Assembly (NCBI GenBank): GCA_025060295.1
Contig: JANXCH010000003.1
Coordinates: 1-64,000, forward strand
Direction: 5' to 3'
Length of the DNA stretch: 64,000 nucleotides
DNA from: Dehalococcoidia bacterium
GTDB lineage: Bacteria; Chloroflexota; Dehalococcoidia; Lucifugimonadales; HRBIN23
Below, piece after piece: positions 104 through 53,208 of the stretch. Numbering within the stretch: the first letter of the stretch is position 1; every line of letters begins with the position of its first letter. Below the pieces are notes generated by a model, which was not told the origin of the DNA, ran no database searches, and worked only from the letters and a program-made list of their open reading frames with translations. Made by a program: the position numbers and the translations under genes.

Positions 104-2686
104 TGCGTCTTCGTAGTAGGTGTCAATGTTAGTCCGCCCACGGTGCCACCCGGCCAACCCGTCCAAGTGACCGTGGTGAAAGTGAACCGCTGCACCACCT
201 CCGCTCCGTATACCTTGATCGTCCGCCTGGATGGCGACATCAAGGCTACTCTGTCGGGGACGCTCCCACCGCAGCAGACCCGGCGCAACACCGTCTCCCT
301 GACTACACCTGTCCCGGGTCCGCACACGGTAACGGTGGACGGTGTGTCGGCCACCTTCACCGTCATAGGCACAAGGCTGCTCGGGTCTGTGGTGGCCTCC
401 CCCGTTGTGACCTTCGCGGGCTCCCCTGTGGTGAAGGAAGTTGCCTTGCTTAACCAGGGTGCAGCAGGCACCTTCTCCCTCTCGTGCACCGAGACCCGCG
501 ACGGGACCTCACTGGGCACGGTGTTTGCTGCGTCCGGGCTCATTGGTGCCAATGCCACGAGGATCTTCACCTTCGCTCAGGATGGTCAGCCTGGCACTTA
601 CACCGTTACCTGCACAGCTGACGGCACAACCTTCAGCACCACTTTCGTCAAACTGCCCCGGCCTATTGTGCGTTGGCCGCCCATTATTCGCCGCGTGGGC
701 CTGATTCAGCAGACACCTGCGCCTCCGGTTGCCTCCCTGCACGAGTATGAGAGGGTGCAACAGGTGAGTGCGGCGTGGAATGGCGGAGCCCCTTCTCTGC
801 CCTCCCCGCAGCAACAAGCCCTGGCCATCCTTCTGACACTGCCACCGGGGGCCGCCCTCACACAACCTTTCACCGACCCTGTAACGGGTGCCCGCTTTGA
901 CGGCCGGGACACCGTGACCCTCGATCTTCGCGACGCGCGCGGCACCCGCATCATGACCCTTATTGCCCGCGTGGAACCTTTGGTGCGCTTGGATCCCACC
1001 ACCGCTCAAGCCCGGGTGCGTGAACTGCGCACCCAGATTGGCCCCCACACCGAGGACTTCACCGCCCGGGATGGGGCCGTGGGCCGAGTGGAAACTTTCT
1101 TTGACGCTGTGCTTGTTGACCTGCCTCCAGAGGAGTTTGCTTTAGGTGTGGCCCACACCAAGACCGTCAGTCCTGATGCCCTGGCCCCCTTCCAGGCTTT
1201 GGCCAGGAACGAGGGATTGAGGATTCGCGACCTGGCCTTCGCCACCATCGTGGATACCACCCTGCGCCCCCGCACCACCGTGGGCGAAGTGCGGGTGCGC
1301 ATGACGGTGGGCCAGACCTGGGTGGAGCGCATGGGTGGGGCCGGGCAAATCCGCATCGGACGCCTTGCCGATGACGGACGGGCGAGTTTCCTGACTACCC
1401 GCCTCGTGGAGACTCGCGACGGACGCGCAACCTTCGAAGCCATTTCCCCCGATGGGTTGTCCACATTCCTCCTGATGGCTGTAGAGCGCCCGCCGGCCGC
1501 CTTCCAACCCGTGCTCAGCGATCTGCAGGTGGAACCCCCAGCCGTCGAGCCCGGCCGCTCGGTACAGGTAACGGTGCAGGTTACCAACCGCGGCACTGCC
1601 GAGGGCACGTATTCCGACGTGCTCCTGATAGATGGCACGCCCGTGGCCACCGCAGCCGTAACCGTGCCTCCTGGCCAGACTCGCACCCTCACCTTCGCCC
1701 CCCTATTGGAGCGTGAAGGCACCTTCACTCTGCGGGTCGGCGACCTGACCGCTCGCGTCACTGTGGCGCGCCGGCCCCCTGCCACCGATATCGTCCTGGG
1801 CACGCCGCCCGCCCTTCCGCCACGTGTGGACGCCGGCCGCCCCGTGGAAGTCTCCCTGCCCATAACTAACCGTGGCACTGCCACAGGCGTCGTGGAGGTG
1901 CGGTTCTTCGCCAACGACGCCCTTCACGATGTGCGCTCCTTAGCCATAGGGCCGGGGGCCACGGCTACTGCCACATTCACCTTTACCCCTGTGGCTGGGG
2001 TGGATGCCACTTATGCCCTGCGCTTGGAGGTGCCGGGTGTGGGGGCACGCACCCTCTCCCTGCGTGCAGTGCCACCCCCCACACCTGCCCGTTACACGGT
2101 CGCCCCTGAGCGGATAGCCCCCGACCGCCCGCTGGCAGGGCAAGCCTTCACCGTCGCTTTCTCCCTCACCAACATCGGCGACACTGCTGAACCCCGCTTC
2201 ACGGGCGCCATCGTGGCCGTTGGCCCCGTCACCCGCGAGGTGGCCATCCCTCCCCAGACCCTGGAACCCGGAACGGGGCGCATCCTCGAGCAGGCGATTA
2301 CTCTGGACACCCCGGGGGCTTACACCATCTCTATCCGCTTCGACACTCAGACGGTGGAGTTGGGTCGGGTAACAGTGCAACCACCGCCCACACCGACACC
2401 CACACCCACGCCACGGCCGCCGACGCCCACCCCTACCCCCACACCGGTGCCGCCCACACCGACACCGGTGCCACCTACACCGACCCCGACACCCGCCGTG
2501 GTACCCACACCCACACCGGTGCCGCCTACACCGACACCCACGCCGCGGCCCCCGACGCCCACACCCACCCCGGTGCCGCCGGCGCCCGCACCCTTCCCCA
2601 CGGGCTTGGTGGTGGGCATCATCATCGCCGTGGTAGTCGTGGCGATCGTTGCCGTAGTGCTCCTGCGGATGCGCCGTCGGGGCTAG
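2..2686 (+). CDS. Large membrane-anchored surface protein with CARDB-like domains (5' partial)
   Basis: The reading frame is open to the left edge, so the apparent GTG start at 143 is internal. The visible part begins with a Thr-Pro linker (2-103), then CARDB/Ig-like beta domains (the first begins VNVSPPTVPPGQPV), a middle region resembling PGF-pre-PGF-type extracellular domains (W-V-E-R near 1320 and S-T-F-L-L near 1465), and three more CARDB-like repeats marked by VTNRGTA, ITNRGTA and LTNIGDT. A second long Thr-Pro linker (2386-2590) precedes a C-terminal hydrophobic helix ending in RMRRRG, a typical stop-transfer anchor. The domains should lie outside the membrane. CARDB repeats occur in adhesins and cell-surface proteins; no catalytic domain is visible. 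The ligand is unknown. Confidence 0.85.
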   Translation, partial: PTPTPTPTPTPTPTPTPTPTPTPTPTPTPTPLVQCVFVVGVNVSPPTVPPGQPVQVTVVKVNRCTTSAPYTLIVRLDGDIKATLSGTLPPQQTRRNTVSLTTPVPGPHTVTVDGVSATFTVIGTRLLGSVVASPVVTFAGSPVVKEVALLNQGAAGTFSLSCTETRDGTSLGTVFAASGLIGANATRIFTFAQDGQPGTYTVTCTADGTTFSTTFVKLPRPIVRWPPIIRRVGLIQQTPAPPVASLHEYERVQQVSAAWNGGAPSLPSPQQQALAILLTLPPGAALTQPFTDPVTGARFDGRDTVTLDLRDARGTRIMTLIARVEPLVRLDPTTAQARVRELRTQIGPHTEDFTARDGAVGRVETFFDAVLVDLPPEEFALGVAHTKTVSPDALAPFQALARNEGLRIRDLAFATIVDTTLRPRTTVGEVRVRMTVGQTWVERMGGAGQIRIGRLADDGRASFLTTRLVETRDGRATFEAISPDGLSTFLLMAVERPPAAFQPVLSDLQVEPPAVEPGRSVQVTVQVTNRGTAEGTYSDVLLIDGTPVATAAVTVPPGQTRTLTFAPLLEREGTFTLRVGDLTARVTVARRPPATDIVLGTPPALPPRVDAGRPVEVSLPITNRGTATGVVEVRFFANDALHDVRSLAIGPGATATATFTFTPVAGVDATYALRLEVPGVGARTLSLRAVPPPTPARYTVAPERIAPDRPLAGQAFTVAFSLTNIGDTAEPRFTGAIVAVGPVTREVAIPPQTLEPGTGRILEQAITLDTPGAYTISIRFDTQTVELGRVTVQPPPTPTPTPTPRPPTPTPTPTPVPPTPTPVPPTPTPTPAVVPTPTPVPPTPTPTPRPPTPTPTPVPPAPAPFPTGLVVGIIIAVVVVAIVAVVLLRMRRRG
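2386..2592 (+). repeat. Thr-Pro/Pro-rich codon repeat (second linker)
   Basis: Imperfect tandem codons for T-P, R-P-P and V-P-P units between the last CARDB-like domain and the C-terminal transmembrane helix. This is the usual wall- or envelope-spanning linker composition. Confidence 0.85.
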
Positions 2687-2708
2687 GTAGCACCTAGATA
2701 CCCATCCT

Positions 2709-2745
2709 GGGGCCGCCTCCTCAAGGGAGGCGGCCCCGGTTTTTT
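2709..2745 (+). terminator. Rho-independent terminator after the surface protein
   Basis: A 12-bp perfect GC-rich stem (2709-2720 with 2726-2737) has a 5-nt loop and is followed by GG and a run of six T. It starts 23 nt after the stop codon of the surface-protein gene. Confidence 0.9.
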
Positions 2746-2760
2746 CCCCCGGTCCGTAAG

Positions 2761-2790
2761 TTGACCCGTCACCCCCATGCGGGGTAGGAT
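2761..2790 (+). promoter_or_regulatory. Promoter of tRNA-Arg
   Basis: A TTGACC -35 (2761-2766) and a TAGGAT -10 (2785-2790) are separated by 18 bp and end 9 bp before the tRNA. They match the sigma-70 consensus at 5/6 and 4/6. Confidence 0.65.
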
Positions 2791-2799
2791 GGGCATGGC

Positions 2800-2872
2800 G
2801 TCCCAGTAGCTCAGGGGACAGAGCGGCCGCCTTCTAAGCGGCGGGTCGGGGGTTCAAATCCCTCCTGGGACG
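2800..2872 (+). tRNA. tRNA-Arg (anticodon TCT)
   Basis: A 73-nt cloverleaf. The acceptor stem is 2800-2806 with 2865-2871, discriminator G at 2872. The anticodon stem GCCGC/GCGGC encloses loop CTTCTAA with TCT at 2833-2835. The T-arm has the standard GGTTCAAAT core. CCA is not encoded. It reads AGA codons, which are rare in this GC-rich window. Confidence 0.95.
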
Positions 2873-2984
2873 CGGGTTTTTCGTTTCTCAAGGAAGTCCC
2901 GCCTGCTTGCCGAGGGGGGCCTCTGCGCCCTAGGATGGAGGCGATGGATTCTCCGCCTTCCCAGGGCGTCGGAGGTCTGCCGCG

Positions 2985-3566
2985 ATGAACCCGATGGTCC
3001 TCGTCCTCCTCCTGAACCTGCTCTTGGGCACGGTGGGCATCGCCTTCATCTTCCGTACCTTGGTGGAGAACTGGTCGGCGGGCATTGTGGTGCGCCACAC
3101 CGGCAACCTGACCCCCGGCCGCCGCATCAAGATCATTACCCCTACTCAGATTATCAAAGGAGACATCCTGTCCATCGGGCCGGTGCGCACCGCCTTATGG
3201 GAGGTGGGTGACGGGGAACACCTCCCCAGTATCCGCACGGGGCGCATCATCAAAGTCCCCAACGCCTTCCTCCTCAACAACCCCATCGTGGTGTATGGGG
3301 ATGTCATCGTGGACGAGGTCATCGCCCAGGTGAAACTGGACGGCCACCGCATCAGCGATATCGTGGAGGACATGCGCCAAGCGATACGGCTGCGGGGGCA
3401 CAAGGTGGTCGGCGTCAGCCTCTACCAGAAGGATGACCGCTGGGTGGTGCACGGGGTGTTTGAGGTGGAGACGCCTAACCTGGCCGATGAGCGGGGGATG
3501 GTTCTGCAAGCCTTTTGGCAACGGCAGAGCCAGCGCCAGTCGGAGAAATCCGCTACGCCTAGCTGA
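2985..3566 (+). CDS. Minimal MscS-domain membrane protein
   Basis: A 193-aa protein with one N-terminal hydrophobic helix (residues about 3-24) followed directly by a beta domain of the mechanosensitive channel MscS type (VVRHTGNLTPGRRI, IKGDILSIG, then IKVPNAFLLNNPIVVYG, matching the family's V-x-I-P-N-S/A-x-L signature) and an alpha/beta C-terminal part. MscS channels normally have at least three transmembrane helices, so this is a reduced form. It may assemble as a heptamer around one helix per subunit or partner another membrane protein. GGAGGT lies 8 nt before the ATG. It is monocistronic and convergent with the M20 peptidase gene. Confidence 0.75.
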   Translation: MNPMVLVLLLNLLLGTVGIAFIFRTLVENWSAGIVVRHTGNLTPGRRIKIITPTQIIKGDILSIGPVRTALWEVGDGEHLPSIRTGRIIKVPNAFLLNNPIVVYGDVIVDEVIAQVKLDGHRISDIVEDMRQAIRLRGHKVVGVSLYQKDDRWVVHGVFEVETPNLADERGMVLQAFWQRQSQRQSEKSATPS

Positions 3567-3576
3567 ACCGTTTGGG

Positions 3577-3614
3577 GGAGAATAGCATCGGCCCTACCCA
3601 GGGCAGGCTTCTCC
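3577..3614. terminator. Hairpin between convergent genes (possible weak bidirectional terminator)
   Basis: Nested inverted repeats: GGAGAA (3577-3582) with TTCTCC (3609-3614), and inside GCCCT (3591-3595) with AGGGC (3600-3604). It sits where the MscS-like and M20 genes converge. There is no clear T-tract. Confidence 0.35.
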
Positions 3615-3618
3615 TGAC

Positions 3619-4971
3619 CTACCGCCCCAGGGCCTCCACAATGCTGGCCATGTGCAGAATGGCCCTCTGGTAGTCCTGCAAACGGATGTTCTCGTTAGGG
3701 GCGTGGATGCGGTTATCGGGGTACCCCGCCCCTGCGGCCATAGCCACCGGCAGACCCCGCTCGGTGAAGAAGCACATGGGGCCACTGCCCGCCATAGTGG
3801 GCACCAACACCGCCGGCGTGCCGTAGACCTCCTGGGCAGCGTCAGCCACCAGGCGCACCCACGGGCTGTCCAAGGGGGTGCGGGCGGGCGCGCTCCCCCC
3901 CGGATGCTCGATAACCTCTATGTCCCCGAACCCGTGCACCCGCAGGTGCTCCCGCAACAGGGCCACCACCTCCTCGGGGCGCTGATCGGGCACCAAGCGA
4001 AAGTCCACCTTGGCCCGTGCCTCGGCTGGCACAATGGTCTTGGTGCCTGGCCCCGTGTAGCCCCCGACGATGCCACAAATGGAGCACGAGGGTTCAAAGT
4101 ACAGGCGGCGGCGATAGGCGTAGCCCCGCACCCCCTTCACGAACTTTTTGATCCCCAGGCTTTGGGCCAACTGGGCATCCTCCTCCGGGAGACGGCGCAG
4201 AGCCTCCCGCTCCAACCGGGTAGGCGGGCGCACCCTATCGTAGAAACCCCGAATGCGCACCCGCTCCCCCGGCCCCTTGAGAGTAGATAAGGCCCATACT
4301 AATCGCCACGCCGGGTTGGGCACGACCGCCCCGTAAGAGGAGTGCACATCCCGATTGGCCCCTCTGGCCACCAGTTCCACATAGGCGATGCCCTTCAACC
4401 CCAAGGTGACAGTGGGGGCACCCTCCCAAGTTACGCCCCCACCCTCCCAAATACATCCCTCCGCCCGTAACAGGTCGGCGTGCTGGGCAACCCAATCCCC
4501 GAAATGGGGGCTTCCGATCTCCTCGGCACCCTCCAGCACCCATCGCACCGTGCAGGGCACGGTGCCATACACAGCGCGCCACGCCTTCACCGCTTGCAGG
4601 CGCGCCACAAAACACCCCTTATCGTCCGAGACCCCGCGAGCGTAGGCCTTACCGTCCCGAACGGTCAAGCGGAAGGGGGGACTATCCCACAACTCCAACG
4701 GCTCAGGCGGCTGCACATCGTAATGGTCGTAGATGAGGACGGTGCGGGCCGAGCGCCCCTTCTGTTCCGCATACACCACCGGGGCCACCCCCGGCAGGGG
4801 GAACAAACGCACAGTGAAGCCCGCCTCCTCCAGCATGGCTTTCACCACCTGGGCGCACTCCTCCACCCCCATCCTCTGGGCGCTGACGCTGGGCTGATTA
4901 CACAGGCGTTCCAGATCGGCCAGGGCCTGGTCCATATGTGCCAGGATGTAGGAACGCACACGCTCGTCCAT
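3619..4971 (-). CDS. M20-family metallo-dipeptidase/peptidase
   Basis: A 450-aa zinc peptidase of the M20 (PepV/CNDP-like) group. The sequence shows the first metal/catalytic motif YDHYDVQP (residues about 79-86), the bridging aspartate segment GRGVSDDKG-like (ARGVSDDKG), the general-base motif EGAEEIGS and the inserted dimerisation domain. It should hydrolyse small peptides or N-acylated amino acids in the cytoplasm; no signal peptide is visible. The length is normal. AAGGAG lies 6 nt before the ATG. The fmdB-like gene upstream on the same strand ends at 5047 and may be co-transcribed. Confidence 0.9.
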   Translation of the reverse strand: MDERVRSYILAHMDQALADLERLCNQPSVSAQRMGVEECAQVVKAMLEEAGFTVRLFPLPGVAPVVYAEQKGRSARTVLIYDHYDVQPPEPLELWDSPPFRLTVRDGKAYARGVSDDKGCFVARLQAVKAWRAVYGTVPCTVRWVLEGAEEIGSPHFGDWVAQHADLLRAEGCIWEGGGVTWEGAPTVTLGLKGIAYVELVARGANRDVHSSYGAVVPNPAWRLVWALSTLKGPGERVRIRGFYDRVRPPTRLEREALRRLPEEDAQLAQSLGIKKFVKGVRGYAYRRRLYFEPSCSICGIVGGYTGPGTKTIVPAEARAKVDFRLVPDQRPEEVVALLREHLRVHGFGDIEVIEHPGGSAPARTPLDSPWVRLVADAAQEVYGTPAVLVPTMAGSGPMCFFTERGLPVAMAAGAGYPDNRIHAPNENIRLQDYQRAILHMASIVEALGR

Positions 4972-10428: not shown

Positions 10429-10512
10429 GGCTCGGCTGTTCCCTCTGGCAAACGGATAAACACCCCAGTGGGCAGGGATGCCGTAGGGCATCACCGTGGT
10501 CCTGGGGATATC

Positions 10513-11522
10513 ATGGAACAAAGACACCATAGGGTAAAGGAGATGAAACTGGACATCGTCTACTATAAAGATGCTCGCCATATGGGTGAAGTGGACGATT
10601 GCTCCATCAGCCTCATTGTTACCAGCCCACCTTATTGGAACATTAAAGATTATTCCCTGGATGGATACCAGAGGCGTCCGCGCGCGTCAAAAATAGAGGG
10701 ACAAATCGGCGCTATCCAGGATTATGACGCTTACATGGAAGCACTCACAGCTGTGTGGAAGGAATGCGAGCGTGTGCTCAAGCCAAACGGAAAGTTGTGC
10801 ATCAATGTGCCACTCATGCCCATTCCCAAGAAGGCAATAAGTATTCAATATACGCGATACATTGTTAATATCTATTCCAGCATAGAAAGGGATATTTTGA
10901 CCAAGACCCAGCTCCGGCTGATGGATATATATATCTGGGACCGTGCTAAGACCGTGCTAACCCCACAAAGCGCTTGATGTTCGGGAGTTATCCATATCCG
11001 CCTAATTTTTATGCCCAAAACACGATTGAGTTCATTGGGGTGTTTGTGAAAGACGGAGAGCCTGAAAAGAAGCCGCAGGCTATTAAGGAAGCCAGCAAAC
11101 TCACGGAAGAGGAGTGGGTGAAATTCACCAAGCAAGTGTGGACGCTCCCTATACCCAATGTCCGCGACGAAGCATATGGTCTCCATCCCGCCATTATGCC
11201 CCTTGAAATGGCTGAGAGGCTTATTCGTCTGTACTCTTTCGTGGACGATATCGTGTTAGACCCTTTTATGGGCTCCGGAACAACCGCCAAAGCAGCACGC
11301 ATGTGGGGAAGACATTACATCGGCTATGAAATTGACCCATCCTTTCAGCCAGTTATAGAGCGGAAACTGGCTCAACTATCCCTTGCTCAGCAAGATCTCT
11401 GGAGGCTGTGCGTCCATAACAGGGGGGAGAGGACGATTGGTATAAAGCACTCGGGGAGTTCCACAAGCATTCTGGCCATTACTCCCTACCACAGCACAAC
11501 AACGCAGGCGCTACTTCCGTGA
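10513..11522 (+). pseudogene. Beta-class DNA methyltransferase disrupted by an 11-bp tandem duplication
   Basis: Two overlapping frames together make one N4/N6 amino-methyltransferase. The 5' frame (ATG at 10513 or 10543, stop 10975-10977) has motif IV TSPPYWNIKDY. The 3' frame (open from before 10950 to 11522) has FGSYPYPPNFYAQNTIEFIGVFVKDG and motif I DPFMGSGTT. The order IV then I marks class beta. The break coincides with two perfect copies of GACCGTGCTAA at 10939-10949 and 10950-10960. Removing one copy joins the frames as DRANPTKRLMFGSY. Base composition is visibly more AT-rich than the flanks, suggesting acquisition. As it stands no full-length enzyme is made. Confidence 0.85.
10939..10960 (+). 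repeat. Perfect 11-bp tandem duplication inside the methyltransferase gene
   Basis: GACCGTGCTAA occurs twice head to tail (10939-10949, 10950-10960). Eleven bases shift the frame by two, and the downstream stop at 10975 ends translation. The second copy is in frame with the C-terminal half. Confidence 0.97.
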
Positions 11523-11889
11523 ATACCGCCGGCGTGAAGAAAGTGAAGCGCATAAAGCGGTGAAGCGATATGTTATCCAAAATGCGGAGACACTCTTCGG
11601 CAGAGGCGCAAAACTTTTTGAGGAAGAATATGTGTTTGCCTCCGGCGATGCAGCGAATTTGGTTCTCACTATGCCAGATGGGCGCTACATCACCGTAGAA
11701 GTAGAAGTGGATGTGGGAAGTGCAGACCTCCCTGGGCTATTGCAAGCCATCAAATATCGCTATATGTTCCCGGTTCAAGAACAACTACCCCTCGACAATG
11801 TCCAAGGTTATCTTGTTGCCAAGCGCATCGCCCCTGAAATCAAGGAATTGTGTCAACGCTATGGTGTGAACTGGATAGAAGTCCCCTAG
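11423..11889 (+). pseudogene. Nuclease-like hypothetical gene, probably frameshifted
   Basis: The clear part is the ORF from GTG 11560 to 11889 (109 aa) with VEVEVDVGSADLPGLLQAIKYR and VQGYLVAKRIAPEIKELCQRYGVNW, a pattern like the PD-(D/E)xK core of NucS/DUF91-type nucleases (acidic E-x-E, then Q-x-x-K-Y). Its frame stays coding-like upstream to about 11503 (RRRYFREYRRREE). A different frame carries coding-like DDWYKALGEFHKHSGHYSLPQ (about 11432-11494) with no usable start codon. The switch lies near CAACAACG at 11497-11504. It may be the partner of the broken methyltransferase. Nuclease assignment is tentative. Confidence 0.5.
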
Positions 11890-12003
11890 ACCACCTCGCA
11901 CACCACCCTGCCCCACCACCTTGAGTGCCTACCGTCACTCCCCGAGGGTGCCACGCCTGGCGCTACCCCTTTCGCTACCGCCGGGGCGCACCCTGAACAG
12001 CCC

Positions 12004-32503: not shown

Positions 32504-33430
32504 ATGCAGACACGGCGTCGGCGTGAAGGAACACGCACCAGCGTTTTCGGCTCGCCCGGGCGCTTCGGGCACGACTCCACGCCTTTCTACGCCAGTCGGC
32601 TGTATGAGGGGTTGCCACAGGAGCGCCGAGTGGCTTATCAGGAGAATCCCCTCCCCACCGAAGCGGTAAACCGTATCTTCTGTAAGTCCAGCGAGAGCAT
32701 GGAGGAACTCCCCGATTGCAGTGTCCACCTCATGGTTACTTCGCCACCCTACAATGTGGGCAAAGAGTACGATGAGGACTTGACCCTAGACGAGTATCGG
32801 GCCTTCCTGCGCCGGGTGATGCGGGAGGTTTACCGGGTGTTGGTGCCAGGGGGCCGTGTCTGCTTCAATATCGCCAACCTGGGCCGCCGCCCCTACTTAC
32901 CGCTCCACGCATTCCTCATCCAAGACTTCCTGGATCTGGGCTTTTTGATGCGGGGGGAAATCATTTGGGATAAAGCCAGCAGTGCTAGTCCCTCCACGGC
33001 CTGGGGCAGTTGGCAATCGCCGGCGAACCCCACTCTGCGTGATACCCACGAATACATCCTGGTGTTCTCCAAAGAGACCTTCACACGCCCTCGCCCCTCG
33101 GGGCGGGAGCCGACCTTGACCCCCCAGGAGTTCCTGGAGTTCACCAAGAGCGTGTGGCGCTTCCCCGCGGAACCAGCCACCAAAGTGGGGCATCCCGCTC
33201 CCTTCCCCGTAGAACTCCCCTACCGGTGCATTCAACTGTATACCTACTCGGGGGAAGTGGTGTTAGACCCCTTCATGGGGAGTGGGAGCACCGCCTTGGC
33301 AGCGTTGAAAACAGGACGGATGTATGTGGGCTACGAAGTCAACCCTGAATATTGCCACCTGGCCCTCAACCGTATCAGTGCCTGCAAGGTGGCCTTGCCC
33401 GGCCTCCTCACCACTGGTCAAAACGCATGA
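32504..33430 (+). CDS. Beta-class DNA methyltransferase of a type II restriction-modification pair
   Basis: A 308-aa SAM-dependent amino-methyltransferase. Motif IV VTSPPYNVGKEYDED is at residues 78-92, target-recognition region between, and FxGxG motif DPFMGSGSTALAALKTGRMYVGYEVNPEY near residue 260: order IV then I, class beta. TSPPY fits N4-cytosine or N6-adenine enzymes. It carries about 55 extra N-terminal residues; another start is not evident. The stop overlaps the ATG of the next gene (ATGA), the tight coupling expected for a modification enzyme and its partner nuclease. Confidence 0.9.
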   Translation: MQTRRRREGTRTSVFGSPGRFGHDSTPFYASRLYEGLPQERRVAYQENPLPTEAVNRIFCKSSESMEELPDCSVHLMVTSPPYNVGKEYDEDLTLDEYRAFLRRVMREVYRVLVPGGRVCFNIANLGRRPYLPLHAFLIQDFLDLGFLMRGEIIWDKASSASPSTAWGSWQSPANPTLRDTHEYILVFSKETFTRPRPSGREPTLTPQEFLEFTKSVWRFPAEPATKVGHPAPFPVELPYRCIQLYTYSGEVVLDPFMGSGSTALAALKTGRMYVGYEVNPEYCHLALNRISACKVALPGLLTTGQNA

Positions 33431-51903: not shown

Positions 51904-53136
51904 CTACCCCTTTGGGCCTGTGTGAGGCCTCAGCCCATCGCCGATACCTTCCTGAGGGATAGACGCCTCCATCCCCAATTCGCGGCGCATCACCGCACAA
52001 TACGCTGGCTCCGCATCCACTAAAATGAACCGCCGCCCCAACTTCAGGCACGCCTTGCCCACCGTCCCCACCCCTGCGAAGGGGTCCAACACCACATCCC
52101 CGATAAAGGAATAATAGCGCACCAGGCGCTCCACAATCTCCAGGGGAAACACGGCGGGATGGTGGGGATGATGGGCTGGACGGGCATACCACACATTGGT
52201 AACCGCATATCCATCGTCAATGGTCGACGCCGCTACCGCCTCCCTATCAGGGTGGGTGCGGATGTTCCAGTCAATCAGGCGCTCCGTCTGTTTGCGGTAG
52301 ACCAGGAAGTACTCGGTTACCGGGACAGGCTTATACTGCAAGGGATGGCGATCGGCGGCGAAGCGTCTGCCCCGCCCCGTGTTCCACCCCGCCCCCTCGG
52401 GCTTCACCCAGATGATGTCATCCAGGAAGTCAAAGCCCAAGCGCTCCAGGATGGCGTTGATGTGAAAGGGGACGGGGATACGCCGGCTGGAGCGGCTGCG
52501 GCTGGGCCGTCGCACCAGCACCGGGGAGGCGTTGACGATCAGGAACCGCCCTTCGGCCAACACCCGATGGCACTGGGCGAACACCTCCTCCAGCATGGAC
52601 AGGTAGGAGGGGTAGTCGGGGAACTCCCCATACTGGGGACGGGCGTTGTAGTAAGGGGGCGAGGTGAGCACCAGGTGCACACACCCGTCGGGGAGAGCGG
52701 GGAGCACCAGGCGAGCATCCCCACACACCACCTGGGAGGGCAGAGGGTCTTGGATGAGGGGACGCTGGGTGATTACTGGCGCCGGCACCGGATGGGCCCG
52801 GGCATACCCCAGACGGGCCAGCAGAACACCAGGGCGCGTTGCCCCCATCACTTCCCCATCGGCACACCGCACCATCACCTCCCCTACCAGAAGGCCATTG
52901 TGGGGTTCCAGCAGGGCCACCCGCCACGCCTTGTGCCGGTCGTCCACCTCGGGTAAACCCAGGGCCACCGTCACATCGGGGGGAAGGTGCTGGGCTATCC
53001 ACTGGCGGACGCGTTGGCGCGCCTGGGCGGCGGTGGTGATGCACCCCAAGCGGGCAGCCAGGCGATTGACCCGCTGGGGCCGACCCTGACGAGGAATAGC
53101 AGGGTTTGGAGCCGGCTGCCCCGTCAGGGCACCCAT
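51904..53136 (-). CDS. Beta-class DNA methyltransferase with N-terminal extension, inside a MoxR-VWA operon
   Basis: A 410-aa protein. Residues about 1-130 have no recognised domain. The catalytic part follows: VVCGDARLVLPALPDGCVHLVLTSPPYYNARPQYGEFPDY (motif IV at 158-162), DDIIWVKPEG, LQYKPVPVTEYFLVYRK, FPLEIVERLVRYYSFIGDVVLDPFAGVGTVGKACLKLGRRFILVD (motif I). Order IV-I: class beta, N4-C or N6-A. No restriction enzyme is adjacent, so it is an orphan. ATG 53136 is chosen behind GGGGGG; an upstream start is less likely. Confidence 0.88.
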   Translation of the reverse strand: MGALTGQPAPNPAIPRQGRPQRVNRLAARLGCITTAAQARQRVRQWIAQHLPPDVTVALGLPEVDDRHKAWRVALLEPHNGLLVGEVMVRCADGEVMGATRPGVLLARLGYARAHPVPAPVITQRPLIQDPLPSQVVCGDARLVLPALPDGCVHLVLTSPPYYNARPQYGEFPDYPSYLSMLEEVFAQCHRVLAEGRFLIVNASPVLVRRPSRSRSSRRIPVPFHINAILERLGFDFLDDIIWVKPEGAGWNTGRGRRFAADRHPLQYKPVPVTEYFLVYRKQTERLIDWNIRTHPDREAVAASTIDDGYAVTNVWYARPAHHPHHPAVFPLEIVERLVRYYSFIGDVVLDPFAGVGTVGKACLKLGRRFILVDAEPAYCAVMRRELGMEASIPQEGIGDGLRPHTGPKG

Positions 53137-53208
53137 AGCGCACCCCCCTTGCCCATAGAGCCCTATCCCCTTGCCCGCCTCGGCGTCCACGGCCCGGGCA
53201 CGGGGGGC

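Follow-up and report, generated by a model that had tools for sequence, protein, structure and literature searches.

Genes and features between trmD and glgA

The window, a 64,000-nucleotide stretch of a Dehalococcoidia draft genome, carries an AT-rich island between trmD and glgA (10430..11890, 49% GC versus about 65% in the flanks). A DNA methyltransferase (MTase) gene in two halves and the remnant of an endonuclease gene lie there on the plus strand. With P0008, the MTase of the intact relative L022, as the tblastn query, two gap-free matches were obtained. The N-terminal half (10543..10944) matches residues 1-134 with 63% identity and contains motif IV, TSPPY (Pfam N6_N4_Mtase, 6.5e-13). 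The C-terminal half (10950..11393) matches residues 133-280 with 71% identity and contains RLMFGSY followed by motif I, DPFMGSG (Pfam N6_N4_Mtase, 4.9e-29). Both halves exceed the PF01555 cut-off, and on the PADLOC type II MTase profile PDLC03353 they cover positions 6-119 and 122-253, which are nearly contiguous. With TSPPY upstream of DPFxGSG the full class-beta domain is present, but not in one continuous reading frame, since an 11-bp duplication breaks the frame. We take the order TSPPY then DPFMGSG to mark the gene as a class-beta amino-MTase, and the TSPPY motif presumably indicates N4-cytosine methylation. Two more amino-MTases of the same broad class, apparently intact and bearing TSPPY and DPFxGxG type motifs, were observed in the window at 32504-33430 (+) and 51904-53190 (-).

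Both genes are complete in their nearest relative, L022 (Candidatus Tariuqbacter arcticus), where an MTase of 283 aa (2587-3438) is followed after 10 bp by a 423-aa endonuclease (3449-4720) with a Pfam RE_AlwI match at residues 94-199 (3.2e-13). The original prediction described the MTase lesion, which is indeed there, but overlooked the downstream gene, which is itself broken. Only the C-terminal nuclease domain of the endonuclease is left in the window (11461..11883, plus strand), corresponding to residues 271-411 of 423 in the L022 endonuclease P0007 with 48% identity (E 5.7e-42) and giving a NucS_C match of 1.1e-5. It is an open frame of 147 aa, in which the first start codon is GTG at 11560, and no second copy of the endonuclease was found elsewhere in the genome. 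Between the MTase and the remnant lies a short plus-strand stretch without detectable homology (11394..11460), in place of the end of the MTase and some 270 endonuclease codons that are present in the relative. The distance between the same flanking residues is 841 bp in L022 and 77 bp in the window, so that about 765 bp are missing, a size estimated from one comparison because one intact homologue of the endonuclease was found. The missing segment takes in the endonuclease start, the RE_AlwI region and the normal end of the MTase. Compared with L022, therefore, the start and the first two thirds of the endonuclease gene are gone, and the MTase lacks its normal 3' end. With the RE_AlwI region absent, the gene adjacent to the MTase does not encode a whole endonuclease, which would have both a recognition and a cleavage part. 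As the deletion took away the usual MTase end, the C-terminal frame overruns it by about 40 residues.

Two other interpretations of this region were rejected. A putative extra frameshift in the endonuclease remnant (EDDWYKALGEF in another frame, ~11426-11460) did not score above shuffled sequence (p = 0.65), and a BspD6I-like small catalytic subunit, represented by the 147-aa fragment, would have neither a good start codon nor a large subunit elsewhere in the genome. Promoter and terminator scans gave signals at shuffle level.

The duplication and the frame break

Two copies of GACCGTGCTAA lie head to tail on the plus strand (10939..10949 and 10950..10960) and form a perfect 11-bp tandem repeat at 10939-10960, in agreement with the original prediction in both coordinates and perfect identity. 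The N-terminal ORF starts with ATG at 10513 or 10543 and stops at 10975-10977 (TGA); the C-terminal part lies in another frame that is open to 11522. Each copy encodes the residues matching P0008 133-134, so that the gene specifies this pair twice. Together with the gap-free matches on either side, this identifies the lesion as one 11-bp tandem duplication. In same-frame orthologous loci there are 9-12 bases between the end of the N-half match and the start of the C-half match, and the window has 11 bases more. Nearly all of the ~80 orthologues read through the duplication site in frame. Leaving the duplication aside, no stop and no indel is present in the MTase body. As read from the nucleotide sequence, the 11-bp duplication is the sole frame lesion of the MTase body, and the prediction of a DNA methyltransferase gene split by this duplication was borne out by the two Pfam N6_N4_Mtase halves of an otherwise intact body.

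The GACCGTGCTAA pair is the only perfect tandem duplication of period 10-40 in the 64-kb window, for which an order-3 Markov null gives an expectation of 0.15. No other perfect tandem duplication with a period >10 and not a multiple of three was found in the 1.55 Mb surveyed, 96% of the genome. Taken alone genome-wide, such a repeat is not beyond chance; we regard it as a real lesion because its position coincides exactly with the frame break. We consider it very unlikely that an assembly or consensus artefact produced the repeat, with a single 11-mer and an intact MTase in the true genome. The genome is a draft of 23 contigs and the MTase body is otherwise clean, as such an error would have it, but duplications of this kind do not recur in the assembly, this one being the only one in the 1.55 Mb, and the endonuclease truncation next door would require a separate error.

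The last base of the TGA that ends the N-terminal ORF is also the first base of an ATG in frame with the C-terminal part (TGATG, 10975..10979, plus strand), and this ATG at 10977 is the Met of RLMFGSY, which is conserved among orthologues. The overlap is exact and both MTase halves are well conserved, as would be expected if the gene were a functional split MTase, in which re-initiation at 10977 yields the C-half as a second polypeptide and the two halves assemble. We find this very unlikely, since the conserved Leu-Met codons (TTGATG) give the overlap by accident once the frame shifts, no relative with a split at the TGATG site was found, and the N-half has no extra conserved tail. Programmed frameshifting was also considered and set aside, as no slippery heptamer was noticed in the ORF overlap.

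Related loci and the setting of the island

Scanning GTDB genomes for orthologues of the MTase yielded 80 loci, 60 of which have a match to the Helicobacter suis endonuclease, usually together with a second MTase (a homologue of MboIIA). The window and L022 instead have one MTase paired with an AlwI-like endonuclease, and in L023 (Poribacteria) the MTase stands without a recognised partner. No relative carrying the 11-bp repeat of the window was found. Poly-G tracts were observed inside the MTase orthologues of H. bilis (G14, L026:2733), H. cinaedi (G10, L028:2737) and an uncultured Helicobacter (G16, L053:2733), and the latter two orthologues are frame-broken at the tracts. These tracts suggest that in Helicobacter this MTase is genuinely phase-variable through simple repeats. 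The Raineya orbicola orthologue (L078:2573-3423) is in two overlapping frames, with the break near a run of seven T. In-frame stops were seen in the orthologues of H. rappini and a Clostridia MAG (L045, L061), and broken copies of this MTase are therefore not rare.

Neither the MTase (E 1e-35) nor the endonuclease remnant (E 1e-8) had a match in 146 related genomes, and in the same-genus genome G001 unrelated genes fill the trmD-glgA interval. By ORF reading, this interval (L015, G001:C92, 2859-6254) seemingly holds two thiolase-like and two zinc/OB-fold-like genes. Because the island is AT-rich, unmatched in the 146 relatives and replaced in the same-genus genome, the MTase looks horizontally acquired rather than conserved in the lineage. 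No island-flanking repeats marking a mobile element were found, and two weak direct repeats seem fortuitous. Viral contigs contained distant relatives only and no copy of the junction; plasmids contained MTase relatives and no match to the endonuclease.

Probable decay of the pair and comparison with known systems

Since the adjacent endonuclease gene has lost most of its length, we favor a decaying defence system over an on/off switch. What is left at the locus very probably derives from a Type II restriction-modification pair that was acquired horizontally and has begun to decay. In all likelihood the ancestral pair would have consisted of a class-beta amino-MTase and, downstream of it, a restriction endonuclease resembling AlwI (type IIS-like). 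The occurrence of broken copies of the MTase elsewhere in the family was also counted in favor of decay. Of the two genes, the endonuclease probably went first, because loss of methylation while the endonuclease still cuts would harm the cell; PMC11324026 describes such harm as post-segregational killing. Loss of the endonuclease would have removed selection on the MTase, and a duplication shifting the MTase frame would then cost little. The duplication may have arisen at this stage through replication slippage or a similar error, which would have ended the synthesis of full-length MTase.

Both lesions look young because the surviving coding sequence is largely conserved. The window MTase departs from the family at 4 of 86 conserved positions, defined as those that are the same in at least 95% of the orthologues, while most orthologues depart at 0-3 positions and 3 of 70 at 5-6. 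In a tree of the C-half, which has few columns, the terminal branch is 0.42 for the window and 0.20 for L022. The departures and the branch length fit a recent, mild relaxation of selection. The otherwise clean MTase body and the open 147-aa endonuclease fragment indicate that decay is recent or that selection has not wholly gone.

The original prediction had raised a possible on/off switch, and this did not hold up: there are two copies only, there is no long tract, and the partner endonuclease is irreversibly truncated. No long mono- to pentanucleotide tract was found in the MTase gene or upstream of it. It had also been held that further lesions would mean a simple pseudogene, and these are present at the level of the locus but not within the MTase. 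When one-copy and two-copy forms were to be compared among relatives, no relative had the repeat and the gene was not found in the 146 genomes, and hence there is no sign of a repeat kept by selection. Reversion by slippage, as had been proposed, could occur, but rarely, and no dedicated switch would be required for it. According to PMC4022640, which cites Waite et al., short tandem duplications within reading frames belong to the known kinds of inactivating mutation, and insertions of up to 9 bp revert at a frequency of at most about 1e-5. Reversibility is common to any tandem duplication and thus is no proof of a switch.

A phase-variable orphan MTase, in which the repeat slips to one copy at a useful frequency and toggles methylation after loss of the endonuclease, is therefore unlikely, although it has several points in its favor. 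The repeat is a perfect tandem duplication that disrupts the ORF, its length is not a multiple of three, and elsewhere the MTase is intact. PMC4022640 also reports, from Waite et al., that spontaneous tandem duplications in capsule genes control phase variation in pneumococcus, and the Helicobacter orthologues of this MTase bear tracts of G10-G16. Against these points, two short copies would revert rarely, at ~1e-5 at most going by the figure for insertions <=9 bp in that paper, and neither a long tract nor a relative sharing the repeat is seen beside the irreversibly truncated endonuclease. The assembly holds the two-copy form only, with the one-copy allele absent. The switch keeps a small share of the probability because loss of the endonuclease is compatible with a phasevarion. 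We consider it very unlikely that the two-copy 11-bp repeat acts as a slow reversible switch of an orphan N4-cytosine MTase whose endonuclease was lost; if it did, this uncultured bacterium would have a phasevarion based on two copies of a repeat.

Read as early decay, the locus offers a clear snapshot of an acquired restriction-modification system dying, with a truncated endonuclease beside an MTase whose frame is broken by a single short duplication that can still be recognised. A tandem duplication in an MTase gene alone is no evidence of a phasevarion, and the neighboring gene should be checked first.

Among known systems, the L022 pair shares gene order and strand with the window, with 63% and 71% identity for the MTase halves and 48% for the endonuclease remnant, but both of its genes are whole, whereas both are broken in the window. 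The RE_AlwI domain of the L022 endonuclease is shared with the type IIS endonucleases AlwI, MlyI and BstNBI, and this is the part that the window has lost. Type IIS systems with a single MTase exist, e.g. MlyI (PMC4081073). The MboII/HpyAII-like systems found in Helicobacter and other bacteria have a first MTase orthologous to that of the window (60-65% identity in the C-half), but they also include a second, MboIIA-like MTase (PDB 1g60, 1e-88) and, as endonuclease, a protein bearing an HNH-like motif. The window has neither, and no such MTase or HNH-type endonuclease was found among its ORFs between trmD and glgA. Pneumococcal capsule switching (PMC4022640, citing Waite et al. 2001, 2003) likewise involves a perfect short frame-breaking duplication that is revertible in principle; unlike it, the locus in the window has a truncated neighboring gene and is known here from the sequence of one assembly. 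With phasevarions, in which MTases are switched by simple sequence repeats, the window has in common an MTase gene with a frame-breaking repeat, but this repeat consists of two copies of an 11-mer in place of a simple-sequence tract.
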